In this document: piece after piece, positions 17,931-22,800 of the stretch
How the letters are laid out: every line of letters begins with the position of its first letter
How positions within the stretch are numbered: position 1 is the stretch's first letter
Source: a virus
Direction: 5' to 3' (one strand)
IMG/VR virus record: IMGVR_UViG_3300018049_000126
Span: 1 to 25,510 of that record
Length of the DNA: 25,510 nt
Notes under the pieces: generated by a model
The model's input: the letters and a program-made list of their open reading frames with translations, nothing else
Databases searched by the model: none
Told to the model about the DNA's origin: nothing
Program-made: the position numbers and the translations under genes

Positions 17931-18389
17931 ATGACTGGTTTAAACATTAACCACCTCACCCCGTTTACTGTAGGTTTTGATCGAATGCTCGATCGATTCG
18001 AAGTACTTACAGATCAAATGAATCGAACCGGAGGATCCGGTTTCCCTCCCTACAACATCCGTAGAGACGCTGACGAGTTCTATATCGATATAGCGCTTGC
18101 TGGTCTTGACCAAGACGATGTTGAAATCGTAGTAGAAAATGGAACACTAACAATTCGTTCTACATGGGACGAACAAGGTGATTACTTCAACGCTGGAGGG
18201 GAAATTCTTCACCGCGGAATCTCATTCCGTAAATTCACTCGCAAATTCGATATTGCGGATGACATTGAAGTGAAAGGTGCCGAATTCGTTAACGGTCTTC
18301 TTACAGTTCATCTCGAAAGAGTAGTCCCCGAAGAGAAGAAGCCTAAGAAAATCGAAATCGGTAATACGAAAAAGCTGCTGAAAGGCTAG
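17931..18389 (+). CDS. Small heat-shock protein (Hsp20/alpha-crystallin, IbpA-like)
   Basis: 152 aa. N-terminal arm with TPFTVGFDRMLDRF as in bacterial IbpA, then an alpha-crystallin domain of about residues 40-125 (YNIRRDADEFYIDIALAGLD, VENGTLTIRS, and ISFRKFTRKFDIAD, NGLLTVHL). A C-terminal KKIEIGN supplies the I-x-I motif that binds neighbouring dimers. AAAGGAG ribosome site. It is expressed from the exact late promoter at 17856, so its products would build up during virion assembly, consistent with a holding chaperone for capsid or tail proteins. Small heat-shock genes are known in marine T4-like phages. Confidence 0.93.
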   Translation: MTGLNINHLTPFTVGFDRMLDRFEVLTDQMNRTGGSGFPPYNIRRDADEFYIDIALAGLDQDDVEIVVENGTLTIRSTWDEQGDYFNAGGEILHRGISFRKFTRKFDIADDIEVKGAEFVNGLLTVHLERVVPEEKKPKKIEIGNTKKLLKG

Positions 18390-18416
18390 CAAAACTTTTT
18401 ATAATGGAGATACATT

Positions 18417-18974
18417 ATGAATCCTAGAACAGGAAGACGAGTGCCTGACGTCACTTTTCAAACGCGCGTGCGAGACGACTCAGTCGGCGGAACCAATCCT
18501 TACCGATGGGAAGCTATTGGGTCGTCTGACCTCTTTGCTGGAAAGCGAGTGGTCGTATTCTCTTTGCCCGGTGCATTTACACCAACATGCTCAACATATC
18601 AAGTGCCAGGTTTTGAAGAAAACTATAACTTGATTCGTGAGCTTGGAGTCGATGAAGTTTATTGTGCTTCTGTTAACGACTCGTTTGTTATGAATAAGTG
18701 GGCAAAGGATCAGGGTGTTGAAAATGTAAAAATGATCCCAGATGGTACGGGTTGTTTTACACGACAAATGGGTATGCTCGTAGACAAATCAAACCTTGGC
18801 TTTGGTATGAGATCTTGGCGTTATGCTATGGTCGTAACTGATGGCGTTGTCGAAGCATTCTTCGAAGAGCCAGGTCTGAGGGATAATGCTTCTGACGATC
18901 CTTATGGAGAAACTGCTCCAGAAGCGATTGTTGAGTATTTGAAATCAGCGACAGGTTTGAGAGAAGCTAGTTAA
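18417..18974 (+). CDS. Peroxiredoxin (Prx5/AhpE-type, one-Cys-like)
   Basis: 185 aa. Peroxidatic motif PGAFTPTCS (51-59) with Thr55 and Cys58, and an Arg in the FGMRSWRYAM stretch that would complete the peroxide site. The Prx5 block YQVPGFEENY follows. Reduces hydrogen peroxide and organic peroxides; a resolving Cys is not obvious, though Cys70-Cys120 region contains others. It shares the late transcript of hsp20 (27-base gap, ATGGAG ribosome site) and ends at the convergent terminator. Phage-encoded peroxiredoxins are uncommon and fit protection during lysis-stage oxidative stress. Confidence 0.9.
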   Translation: MNPRTGRRVPDVTFQTRVRDDSVGGTNPYRWEAIGSSDLFAGKRVVVFSLPGAFTPTCSTYQVPGFEENYNLIRELGVDEVYCASVNDSFVMNKWAKDQGVENVKMIPDGTGCFTRQMGMLVDKSNLGFGMRSWRYAMVVTDGVVEAFFEEPGLRDNASDDPYGETAPEAIVEYLKSATGLREAS

Positions 18975-19017: not shown

Positions 19018-19040
19018 GGGGACTTTACGTCCCCTTTTTT
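19018..19040 (+). terminator. Rho-independent terminator after peroxiredoxin
   Basis: GGGGAC (19018-19023) pairs with GTCCCC (19029-19034) around TTTAC, followed by six T. It ends the + strand late transcript between convergent genes. Upstream, AAAAAAC (about 18973-18979) and GTTTTTT (19009-19015) could pair to help stop the - strand transcript, but that is less clear. Confidence 0.8.
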
Positions 19041-20865
19041 AATTGGCGAATCCTCCAGCACTATCCTCGCCGCCATTATTCATTTCAACAAGAGCACTCG
19101 AGCTGATGTTTCTATCACCTTCAATAATTGTATTATTAACAGGTGTAATGTTTTCTGTCTTATTGACTATAATAGGTGCTTGATTACCCGCAGAACTTTC
19201 GATAGCTTCGACAAGACGATCAATACTTTCGCTGGATATTTCTGATTTTAACGGCTCGCCCTGTTGTGCTCTTTGAAGCTCTGGGTTTTCTGCTTCGACC
19301 CTCTCTTCTAATGAAGCTCTATCTGAAGGAGTAACTGCAACATCAGGTTCTCCTTCTCTCGCAAGCCTTGCGTTATATTCTTCGAGGGTTTGCACTCCTC
19401 GTGTTTCTGTATCAAAATCTGCAATACCCTTTTCTATTCTATCATTAAGCAGATTTTCGAAATTCTGTCTTTGCATTTCACGCCGTTCAATGATTTCTTC
19501 TAATTCTTTTTTGCGACGATCGCGCTGTTGCCTTGCAATTCTCCTTTCTCGGTTATTTCCAGTTATCGGAGTATCTTCTATACTTTCGAGTTCTTCTCTC
19601 GCTTGATCAATTTCACTATTCAGCCTCTCTCGAGTCTGCTCTGCCATTTCTTCTACAGTTTTATTGTATATAGTTTTTGTGTTTCCACGGCGACGTGTTT
19701 CGGTCCCGCCCTTTTTCAACGCATCTTGAATATCGTTGGGCAATCCTTCGATGTCGTACATAGCATCTCGAACTTCGTGATATAAAGTTTTACCTAATAC
19801 ATAGGCACCACCGAGAATTGCACCAGCAATTAAACCTTTAATTCCAAACATGCTTCCTAACGTAGCAGCTCCAGCAATCGTTGACAGGCCTTCGACACCA
19901 TCTACGGAAGTATTCATTAATTGATCTTTAGTTAAACTTTCTGAGTCTTGTTTAAATAGTTCAGAAGCTTGTGATCCATAATAAACTAAACCAGATCCTA
20001 CTGCTGCAATAATTGCATTTCTTCCAGTAAGTAATGATCTAAAGCCAGAGGCTCGACCGCGGCCTCTACGATCTGGGTCATCGTCTGCCCCATCAACAGG
20101 TGGCCGCGCACCTCCTCCACTTCTTCGTATTGCTTCGAGCGTTGCAGCGGTGATTACCCCATCCTTTATCATTTCTGTTACTGGGCCAGCAGCTAATACT
20201 GCAGCACCTATTCCAAGCGCGCCCACTGCAGCTTGACCGGCTTTTTCTGCCAGCCTTTCTAAATTTTCAGGCGTTAAGGCTTGTTCCATCTGAGATAAGA
20301 TGAGTGGTGTTTTTTCTGCGAGTATATTTAATGCATTGGAGATTTTATCCCATGATGTAGTCGCAATCGACTTAACCATTTTGTTTAAACCGCCTTCGGT
20401 TTTTTCATCAAGGAATCCATAGCCTACTGATAGTGCCGCAATTGTTCCGGCGCCTATCGCTAAATTTTTCATTGTACCCATGCCCATTAATTGTTTAAAC
20501 AATCCTGGGCCAGAAGCCTTATCTTTTTCGCTCCTCAATTCATTTTTAAGCTTTTCTGTTTCAACTTTTTCTCGAAGAGCCTTTAATTCTGCAGATTCTT
20601 GGTCTGCTTCAAGGTCAGCAAAGGCTCGATCCCTTGCTGCTTGTTCTGCTTGTCTTTCTGCGATGTCTGCCTGCGCGCCGATACCTGCACGAACAGCATC
20701 TGTTTGAGAAGCAATATTAGTTGAAATCGTATTGAAAATACCTTCGAACTTAGCCAGCTCAACTTTTACAGAGCGAATTGAATTGTTGCCAGAATTGCGC
20801 AGTAACTCGCCTTCTCGTTTGAGGCGATCAATAATCGCTTCTGTTTCAGCCGACAGTTCAGCCAT
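19039..20865 (-). CDS. 29: Tail tape-measure / baseplate hub protein (gp29-like)
   Basis: 608 aa; T4 gp29 is 590 aa. Helical, charged N-terminus (Ala/Glu/Arg-rich, residues about 70-115) suggests coiled coil. Several Gly/Ala hydrophobic segments follow (about 132-150, 208-230, 280-296, 330-360), as in tape-measure proteins that sit in the tail tube and reach the host membrane. A second coiled coil spans about 410-480, and a polar C-terminal tail follows. The length would set tail length. Start overlaps the preceding small gene by 8 bases. Identified by size, composition and place directly after the tail-chaperone pair, so family-level confidence is higher than exact gp29 orthology. Confidence 0.75.
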   Translation of the reverse strand: MAELSAETEAIIDRLKREGELLRNSGNNSIRSVKVELAKFEGIFNTISTNIASQTDAVRAGIGAQADIAERQAEQAARDRAFADLEADQESAELKALREKVETEKLKNELRSEKDKASGPGLFKQLMGMGTMKNLAIGAGTIAALSVGYGFLDEKTEGGLNKMVKSIATTSWDKISNALNILAEKTPLILSQMEQALTPENLERLAEKAGQAAVGALGIGAAVLAAGPVTEMIKDGVITAATLEAIRRSGGGARPPVDGADDDPDRRGRGRASGFRSLLTGRNAIIAAVGSGLVYYGSQASELFKQDSESLTKDQLMNTSVDGVEGLSTIAGAATLGSMFGIKGLIAGAILGGAYVLGKTLYHEVRDAMYDIEGLPNDIQDALKKGGTETRRRGNTKTIYNKTVEEMAEQTRERLNSEIDQAREELESIEDTPITGNNRERRIARQQRDRRKKELEEIIERREMQRQNFENLLNDRIEKGIADFDTETRGVQTLEEYNARLAREGEPDVAVTPSDRASLEERVEAENPELQRAQQGEPLKSEISSESIDRLVEAIESSAGNQAPIIVNKTENITPVNNTIIEGDRNISSSALVEMNNGGEDSAGGFAN

Positions 20866-21136
20866 TTACTTCGTTCTCCATGAAACAGTTACTGACCTTA
20901 GGATACTCATCGCTTAAAAGAATACCTTCGGCCCACTCGAGTTCTTGAATAAGTCTATTATACCAATGAGCATCATACTCACTATTGCGAGGATTGTCTC
21001 GCTCGATCTTGAGCATTGAAATCCGCATTTTAACGTATTCTCTTCTGGCCATTGCCTTCTTCATTTTACGAGATTCTCGCTCGAGAAGACCAAGCTTACC
21101 TACTGTAGCGCATTCAAATTTCTGTTCGACCTTCAT
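20858..21136 (-). CDS. Small hypothetical protein before tape measure (92 aa)
   Basis: 92 aa, strongly charged and probably all-helical (RESRKMKKAMARREYVKMR, then ERDNPRNSEYDAHWYNRL, LEWAEGILL). No metal, membrane or signal motif. It begins in an ATGA overlap with the end of the frameshifted chaperone and overlaps the tape measure start by 8 bases, so all three are coupled. Function unknown; an accessory chaperone or hub-assembly factor (T4 gp28 position) is only a guess. Confidence 0.7.
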   Translation of the reverse strand: MKVEQKFECATVGKLGLLERESRKMKKAMARREYVKMRISMLKIERDNPRNSEYDAHWYNRLIQELEWAEGILLSDEYPKVSNCFMENEVNG

Positions 21137-21312
21137 TGGTTCTTTTCCTTTTGTTTTTCGATGTAGTTAATCAACATCTGAAAATAAACATCCCTTTCGT
21201 ATGGCATTAAGTTTTCAACATCACTTATCGAGTATTTATGGTGCTGTGCCAATGCGAACACCATTTGATAATATTCGCCCAGACTAATATGACACAGCGT
21301 CAGGAAAAAAAA
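21133..21312 (-). CDS. -1 frameshift extension of the gp26-like tail chaperone
   Basis: The gp26-like frame ends right after eight T (complement of 21305-21312). Slipping back one base on T-TTT-TTT continues in a frame open for 57 codons: FLTLCHISLGEYYQMVFALA, then HHKYSISDVENLMPYERDVY, ending KEKNQ. The frame closes at TGA 21135-21133, in exact ATGA overlap with the next gene. The fusion would be 289 aa. No good independent start or ribosome site exists. The MPYERDVYFQML motif is characteristic of tail-assembly chaperone C-termini. An undercalled T in the homopolymer would give the same fusion. Confidence 0.7.
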   Translation of the reverse strand, partial: FFFLTLCHISLGEYYQMVFALAQHHKYSISDVENLMPYERDVYFQMLINYIEKQKEKNQ

Positions 21313-22001
21313 CTGCGCATACCCTCCACAACGAATGTTTGTTCTTTACCCTCGTTATTCTTATACTTCATTTCATGCCGCAACTTAGGCATGGTTTCGA
21401 AAAACGTTTGAACACCCTTAATCACTTCACCGGGCATTCCTTCCATAAACTCATCAGTCTCATCTTGCGTATATTCAGAAAATAAATGTACCTCATCTTC
21501 TGAAGCAATCTTGTCTAAACAAGAAACCATAATGTAGTAATTTACAAGTGGATCTTTTGGATCCATTTTAACAATCTGCGCAAACTCATCGATCGTTGGA
21601 TACTTGAGATAAAGAATATAGTCTTCATTAACTCTTACTTGATTTGTATGACTTGGGTCTCTCTTTATTTCTACCTTATCAATATTAAGCTCAAGCTGTA
21701 CTGTTTCTTTTGTATCCGGATCTTTGATTTCAAACATCACGGAGTTATCAACCGATCGAGCTCGAAGAATTAAAAGAATATATTCCAAATCGAACATTGC
21801 GAGATCACTTACTTCTCTATCAATCAAGCAATTATTTACGATTTGCCTTGCAGCAAGTAACTCTTGTTCTGGGTCACCGGATTCTGCTGCGACTAAAAGT
21901 ATCTTTTCTTCTTTTACTGTAAATGGTCTATATCTTACTTTTTCCTTTGTCGATGGTAACTCCAATTCAGAAATCGGTAGATCGATTTTTGGTAAAGCCA
22001 T
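21300..22001 (-). CDS. 26: Baseplate hub/tail assembly chaperone (gp26-like), zero frame
   Basis: 233 aa. Resembles the T4 baseplate protein gp26 family (T4 gp26 is 208 aa): LPSTKEKVRYRPFTVKEEKILLVAAES near the start, QIVNNCLIDREVSDLAMFDLEYILLILRARSV, and a beta-rich middle. The N-terminal region is the usual family signature. The 3' end carries a perfect slippery T8 (21312-21305) and stops two codons later. AGGAG ribosome site 7 bases before the ATG. It probably also makes the longer fusion described separately. Likely to prevent aggregation of the tape measure during hub assembly. Confidence 0.8.
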   Translation of the reverse strand: MALPKIDLPISELELPSTKEKVRYRPFTVKEEKILLVAAESGDPEQELLAARQIVNNCLIDREVSDLAMFDLEYILLILRARSVDNSVMFEIKDPDTKETVQLELNIDKVEIKRDPSHTNQVRVNEDYILYLKYPTIDEFAQIVKMDPKDPLVNYYIMVSCLDKIASEDEVHLFSEYTQDETDEFMEGMPGEVIKGVQTFFETMPKLRHEMKYKNNEGKEQTFVVEGMRSFFS

Positions 22002-22017
22002 AATATACTCCTAATAA

Positions 22018-22800
22018 TTAAATGCCTAGCTTATTGCTAATATTGTCAAATGAGTTTGTAACTCTTGTCACGCGATTGACCGCATCCTGAATAGACGTGG
22101 GTCGCCCACCGCGTGTTGTTTGTCGTACGACATCGGCGAAGCCAGCGACTGCTCCAAGGATGTCAAGAATTCCTGTACCACGATTCAGGCGTGATGTTGG
22201 TGATCCGGTCTTCTCGCCTGAGTACTCAATTCTCTTAAAGTTCATAGAGACTGGCACGGTCAAATAACTGTCATTGTTTTCCCACGACAAATCCATATCA
22301 CCTACTACAGTGGGATAACATCCGTCGAGAATTACCTCGTAATATTTGTTATCAAAACTTTCAGTCGAAAAATGTTTTACTGTTACTCGTGCAGAGTACT
22401 CATCTCTGTATCCAATTTCAAATGGAAGCTTATTATCGATCGTAGCAAACGGTCCACCTTTCGTTCCATAGTTTACTACTTGCTGAGCCCAGCGATGGAA
22501 GAACTGAAGAACCTGATGATCTGAGTCAACCATAAAAATTGTTTCAAGCGGACGAGCACCGATACCGACCGGCATTTGACGAGGTAGTTGTCCTACCTGA
22601 GCATTTTCTGCGGTGGTTATGAATACACCAGGAACGTTAGCTGTCTTACAGAAAAAGGTAAATTCTCGTGCACCAAAAACTTCATTACCGCGAGATGCAC
22701 TATCTTTATAAGGTGTGATTGTAACTTCGAAGAGTGAGCTTCGAGCTGGTCCACCAAATCGATCGACAGTTGACTTGAACCTTGTAATATCGAATGGCAT
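22018..22800 (-). CDS. 54: Baseplate-tail tube initiator (gp54-like)
   Basis: 260 aa; T4 gp54 is 320 aa. The start MPFDITRFKSTVDRFGGPARSSLFEVTI and the tube-type beta core (LETIFMVDSDHQVLQFFHRWAQQ, DGCYPTVVGDMDLSWEN) fit tail-tube-like proteins. The C-terminus, with VTNSFDNISNKLGI, resembles the helical end of gp54. In T4, gp54 caps the hub and starts tube polymerisation with gp48. gp48 is present here on the other strand. An ordinary tube protein (gp19-like) is the main alternative. AGAGGA ribosome site lies in the 3' end of the preceding gene. Confidence 0.68.
   Translation of the reverse strand: MPFDITRFKSTVDRFGGPARSSLFEVTITPYKDSASRGNEVFGAREFTFFCKTANVPGVFITTAENAQVGQLPRQMPVGIGARPLETIFMVDSDHQVLQFFHRWAQQVVNYGTKGGPFATIDNKLPFEIGYRDEYSARVTVKHFSTESFDNKYYEVILDGCYPTVVGDMDLSWENNDSYLTVPVSMNFKRIEYSGEKTGSPTSRLNRGTGILDILGAVAGFADVVRQTTRGGRPTSIQDAVNRVTRVTNSFDNISNKLGI

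Follow-up and report, generated by a model that had tools for sequence, protein, structure and literature searches.

A gp26-like gene on the minus strand of an IMG/VR virus record, analysed here over its whole 25,510 bases (the window), ends in AGT TTT TTT TCC TGA. In the frame of this gene the stretch that follows looks non-coding, and in the frame one base back it stays open. The locus thus raises a simple question: does translation end at the TGA, or do some ribosomes step back on the run of T's and add a second segment, so that one gene provides two proteins? The question bears on phage T4 as well, where the two corresponding products, gp26 and gp51, are encoded apart.

A gp26-like gene and the reading frame that overlaps its end

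The slippery heptamer T_TTT_TTT lies in frame inside the T run (Table 1). The original prediction, which proposed a programmed -1 frameshift at this site, recognized the heptamer correctly but counted two codons between it and the stop; there is one sense codon, TCC. The rest of the anatomy reads as it had claimed: the -1 frame runs through 57 codons without a stop, contains the motif MPYERDVY and closes in an ATGA overlap with the start of the next gene. The extension also accounts for the apparently non-coding stretch, which spans 163 bases in the zero frame (21137-21299) rather than the 164 given at first.

Table 1. Features of the locus in window coordinates.
Feature	Position	Strand	Evidence or remark
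Tail tube protein gene, upstream	22018..22800	-	phrog_45 tail tube, E 1.5e-33
Zero-frame gene, gp26-like, putative TAC-N, 233 aa	21300..22001	-	PF12322, E 3.8e-53; phrog_150, E 2.5e-57
SD-like GGAGGG, 9 nt 5' of the heptamer	21322..21327	-	anti-SD pairing peak across clusters
T8 run	21305-21312	-	sequence reading
Slippery heptamer T_TTT_TTT, in frame, inside the T8 run	21306..21312	-	kept in relatives
Zero-frame stop TGA	21300..21302	-	overlapping next -1 codon is ACG, a non-start
Downstream RNA hairpin (predicted), first base 7 nt past the heptamer	21243..21298	-	MFE -24.4 kcal/mol over 75 nt
Hairpin outer arms	21290-21298 / 21243-21251	-	folding
Hairpin inner stem	21268-21278 / 21254-21264	-	folding
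-1 frame extension, 57 codons, gp51-like tail	21136..21306	-	phrog_634, E 8e-22; frame open in 102/102 clusters
Stop TGA of the -1 extension	21133-21135	-	sequence reading
Next gene, 92 aa	20858..21136	-	ATG at 21136, overlapping the stop of the -1 frame as ATGA
608-aa gene, candidate tape measure	19039..20865	-	from position and length only; 3' of the 92-aa ORF

The zero-frame protein belongs to the T4 gp26 family, as it matches both PF12322 ('T4 bacteriophage base plate protein') and phrog_150 ('baseplate hub'); a profile comparison with the T4 gp51 family gives an E-value of 1.7e-10. For the -1 extension taken alone, the match is to phrog_634, 'baseplate hub assembly catalyst' (gp51). At the sequence level, the long form is the short form with a C-terminal tail.

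We obtained an AlphaFold model of the gp26-like protein from a 61-sequence alignment, with a pLDDT of 88. Its two leading structural matches are 3FGX (Z 8.4, 84 residues) and 2OB9, the tail assembly chaperone (TAC) of HK97 (Z 7.5, 81 residues); the next one falls to Z 2.7. Foldseek alone gives weak matches for the same model (E 0.73-0.97). Both 3FGX and 2OB9 are named phage tail assembly chaperones in PMC9603447. Judging from the model, the gp26-like protein has the TAC fold in residues ~1-93. A model of a T4-type gp51 returned no convincing match in the PDB, the best one having an E-value of 1.1.

The gene is preceded by the tail tube gene. On its other side, the 92-aa ORF has no PHROG match up to E 1, and its best Pfam hit, at E 0.11, is below the cut-off. 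For the product of the 608-aa gene we found no significant Pfam or PHROG match, nor any BLASTP similarity to the annotated tape measure genes of Cr30 and HTVC008M. Genes for an Hsp20-like protein (phrog_432, E 4.6e-35) and a peroxiredoxin-like protein (phrog_2281, E 1.6e-69) adjoin on the plus strand at 17931-18974.

Conservation of the slippery site and of the -1 frame

We collected 262 gp26 loci from IMG/VR and public phages. Six were dropped, their contigs ending ahead of the gp26 stop; the 256 readable to that stop group at 80% identity into 103 clusters, which share descent and are not independent trials. Before counting, we set aside the two-gene phages (L084 and L264-L273) and one partial distant match without the heptamer (L094). 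The clusters' phages have hosts as diverse as Synechococcus, Pelagibacter, Sinorhizobium, Caulobacter, Vibrio, Aeromonas, Acidovorax and Stenotrophomonas.

The heptamer T_TTT_TT[T/C] is present at the gene end in 254 of the 256 readable relatives and in 102 of the 103 clusters. The two exceptions are L031, which has G_TTT_TTT, and L177, whose ORF is broken early; the latter is a miss among records but falls inside another cluster. Its contig carries a gp26 99% identical to that of HTVC008M with a shortened zero-frame ORF, probably the result of a sequencing indel.

Codon usage alone would be expected to give the heptamer in ~37 of 102 clusters. As a control, we considered the other Phe-Phe pairs of the same genes, of which only 3 in 101 take its form. 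Because nearly all relatives keep it at the gene end and so few of these other pairs have it, the heptamer is conserved beyond what the amino acids need and chance is excluded. Its distance to the stop is one codon in 90 of 102 clusters, and in all 102 the -1 frame is open across the slip site and stays so over the next 30 codons or more. The check suggested at the outset, whether relatives keep both the T run and the -1 frame, therefore has a positive answer.

Homopolymer runs are error-prone, and the run of the window is a possible error site: had one T been lost in sequencing or assembly, a simple fused gene would appear broken exactly here. The same frame break is found in 254 of 256 readable relatives, across many separate contigs and in cultured phages, often with six T's. 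The relatives refute the artefact, to which we assign a negligible probability, and the concern that the prediction might describe a miscounted fusion is set aside with it.

The length of the run also speaks to RNA polymerase slippage, in which one U added on the eight T's of the window would give an identical sequence and the same fused protein. Among the 102 clusters the run counts exactly six T's in 57, ending TTTTTTC, seven in 35 and eight in only 10; a six-T run is short for polymerase slippage. The seven-base register of the heptamer and the hairpin downstream suit ribosomes better, and we consider a transcriptional origin of the fusion highly unlikely.

Alternatively, a separate small gp51 could be begun at or just past the gp26 stop by termination-reinitiation, with the T run encoding a conserved Phe-Phe pair. 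Public records mostly list two features, the gp51 of S-PM2 begins at an ATG just past the stop, and a start codon overlaps the gp26 stop as ATG in 21 of 102 clusters and as GTG in 9. The window, however, has ACG at the codon that overlaps the stop, and its first -1 frame ATG is at codon index 14, inside a conserved helix. An independent start for the extension, which the original prediction had named as evidence against itself, is present in some relatives (30 of 102 clusters) and absent in the window, and so does not refute it.

Other observations also disagree with reinitiation. No ATG, GTG or TTG occurs from the previous -1 stop to codon index 8 in 38 of the 102 clusters, the window included; the next start in these clusters is mostly at index 14 or 18 after the slip, within the conserved helix. 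A Phe-Phe requirement alone leaves T_TTT in 102 of 103 clusters unexplained. With ~20 nt between them, the SD-like motif is too distant from such starts to serve initiation, whereas its spacing suits a slip. Finally, T4 gp51 is a single fused protein. Altogether, we find reinitiation improbable as an account of the locus.

A short gp51 might nevertheless be made besides the fusion in the 30 clusters where the heptamer is followed by a TAATG or TAGTG overlap. This stop-start overlap comes directly after the heptamer in L009, L037 and L091, among other examples. A different arrangement is seen in the distantly related Vibrio phage 207E48.1 of the Ackermannviridae (L094, 1432-2336), where a gp26-like gene precedes a small gp51-like ORF with TAATGATGG. 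It is without the T_TTT_TTY heptamer and has TAATG, a possible third expression mode.

RNA signals around the slippery site

The 60 nt that begin 3 nt past the A-site codon fold beyond dinucleotide shuffles, with a mean z of -2.41 over 102 clusters and z < -2 in 62 of them. At twelve other offsets the mean z ranges from -0.01 to -1.42 and is mostly near -0.3; the strongest of these, at -1.42, is the folding window beginning 3 nt earlier. When synonymous codons are resampled instead, the folding is significant (p < 0.05) in 35 of the 42 clusters of the window's clade and in 24 of the 60 others. A control stretch reaches the same threshold in 9 of 102 clusters.

Stem conservation was analysed in two alignments, one of 41 of the 42 clusters that have the window as best query (A1, L090 left out), the other of 36 of 37 clusters (A2, L241 left out). 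In the window's clade, a 7-bp stem formed by 21292-21298 and 21243-21249 is paired in 93.7% of cells, and sliding the same stem by 1-3 columns leaves at most 51.6% of cells paired. Its middle pair switches between U-A and A-U, both bases changing together (Fisher p 6e-6). The 3' base of the covarying pair is the wobble base of an Ala/Val codon; therefore, the covariation is not easily explained by protein constraint.

For this 7-bp stem, none of 500 shuffle controls reached the observed share of cells paired, number of two-sided cells or covariation score (0/500 each). The number of pairs with two-sided changes was reached in 206 of 500 and that of pair types in 62 of 500. A consensus stem sought in the 36-sequence cyanophage-type alignment was not found there. 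A stimulatory RNA structure downstream of the slip is supported by the folding statistics across the clusters and, within the window's clade, by covariation.

On the 5' side, anti-SD pairing peaks ~6-15 nt before the slip across the 102 clusters. Its energy is lower than under synonymous resampling at the level of the group (Wilcoxon p 1.9e-9, mean percentile 0.39), the signal being individually significant (p < 0.05) in only ~5% of clusters. The upstream Gly codon is GGA or GGG in 60 of 102 clusters, versus 219 of 657 elsewhere.

We now propose how the locus would be expressed. The gene would encode the TAC of a T4-like marine phage and very probably gives rise to both TAC-N and TAC-NC, through -1 frameshifting on the heptamer. 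Most ribosomes would terminate at the TGA and release TAC-N, of 233 aa. A minority would pause on T_TTT_TTT, aided by the hairpin 7 nt 3' and probably also by the SD-like GGAGGG 9 nt 5'. Both Phe tRNAs would then re-pair one base back and reading would continue in the -1 frame. The predicted product, TAC-NC, is 289 aa long (232 zero-frame residues and 57 more) and would read ...MRSFF-FLTLCHISLGEYYQ... across the slip. By analogy with G and GT of phage lambda, TAC-N and TAC-NC would cover the tape measure protein and bring in subunits of the tail tube.

A frameshifted TAC is supported by the layout of the sequence, its conservation and the RNA signals, and by homology and fold; from these we infer the occurrence and the rate of slippage as well as the chaperone role. 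A -1 frameshift that joins a gp26-like chaperone to a gp51-like tail, as first predicted, is the best reading of the locus, given the phrog_634 match of the extension (E 8e-22) and the heptamer in 254 of 256 records.

One gene or two: T4 and other known systems

In T4, the baseplate hub assembly chaperones gp26 and gp51 are indeed encoded by two genes, which diverge on opposite strands, but the original prediction did not go further than their separation. The 249-aa T4 gp51 covers the PF12322 model completely and phrog_150 to its end, and the last 100 residues of the protein match phrog_634. These matches identify T4 gp51 as a full gp26-like domain followed by the same tail, which in the window lies in the -1 frame. 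T4 thus relies on two genes, a short one and a fused long one; the window makes do with a single gene and a probable slip.

T4 gene 26 ends in GAG TTC TTT GAG TTA CTA TAA, without a slippery site. More generally, T_TTT_TTY is found at the end of gene 26 in 0 of 15 readable two-gene phages, L266 being unreadable and outside the 15. In contrast, T_TTT_TTC together with an open -1 frame occurs in each of four further one-gene Straboviridae from outside the 256 records (LPCS28, phiAS5, CC2 and Ahp1_CNU-2021). The heptamer and the fused paralogue look mutually exclusive, with the heptamer in 102 of 103 one-gene clusters and these four Straboviridae against none of the 15.

There is, in our view, an even chance that one-gene frameshifting is ancestral in T4-like phages and that the gp26/gp51 pair is derived. 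In that event, perhaps on more than one occasion, a duplicated fused paralogue would have replaced the frameshift and the slippery site would have decayed. In Enterobacter phage EC-F2 (L276, 1501-2794), a long gp51-type gene and a short gp26-type gene, both with PF12322, stand in tandem on one strand; this layout hints at a duplication history separate from that of the divergent T4 genes.

Of 544 matching phage records we sampled 60; 46 of them carry two features where the extension lies, and the other 14 carry the gp26 feature alone. In HTVC008M and C48C1 the annotated gp51 is shortened to ~45 and ~34 aa, respectively, and no gp51 is listed at the locus in ACG-2014i, ACP17, avDM12-TAAL, CC2 and LPCS28. 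Frameshifting would explain this recurrent blind spot of annotation, in which one chaperone is recorded as two proteins or loses one half. It would also bring the long-puzzling 'hub catalyst' gp51 of T4 within the G/GT scheme known from other tailed phages. Side by side, the two kinds of locus naturally allow frameshifting and gene duplication to be compared as ways of setting the ratio of short to long chaperone.

TACs of T4-like phages were identified by Vladimirov, Gautam and Davidson (Virology 2022), in a paper whose title suggests an alternative to frameshifting. As retold in the PRFect paper (PMC10885494), a short gene and a separate long, fused gene occur in some T4-like phages; the 2022 work is also cited, in PMC12846349, as the source on poly-T signals for -1 slippage in T4-like TAC-N genes. 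T4-like TACs and poly-T frameshift signals are thus already in print, and the window is a well-supported further case. Our literature search returned no title on gp26/gp51 or baseplate-hub frameshifting at this locus. In the PRFect paper and in the first 300,000 characters of a 2016 recoding review, baseplate and cyanophage are absent, and in that part of the review gp26 and gp51 are as well. Our searches met no published figures on how far the signal is conserved, nor any mention of the covarying stem or of the heptamer and the fused paralogue excluding one another, though Vladimirov et al. may report parts of this.

With lambda G/GT and the HK97-type TACs, the window shares predicted short and long forms from one gene near that of the tail tube, and a probable -1 shift near its 3' end; the fold of 2OB9 and 3FGX is common to residues ~1-93 of the modelled gp26-like protein. 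Contrary to these systems, the window comes from a contractile T4-like phage and has a larger N domain with an extra C-terminal half. Its family has a U_UUU_UUY heptamer, and the predicted slip is one codon ahead of the stop in 90 of 102 clusters. The TACs of Vandenendeviridae and Andersonviridae likewise have a poly-T -1 signal at the end of TAC-N followed by an open -1 frame, but they belong to other phage families and carry GTTTTT instead of the TTTTTTY seen here (PMC12846349). Closest in arrangement are the Kyanoviridae such as S-PM2 and HTVC008M, which have the locus, the heptamer and the -1 tail in common with the window, whereas their records are annotated as two genes or with a shortened gp51.
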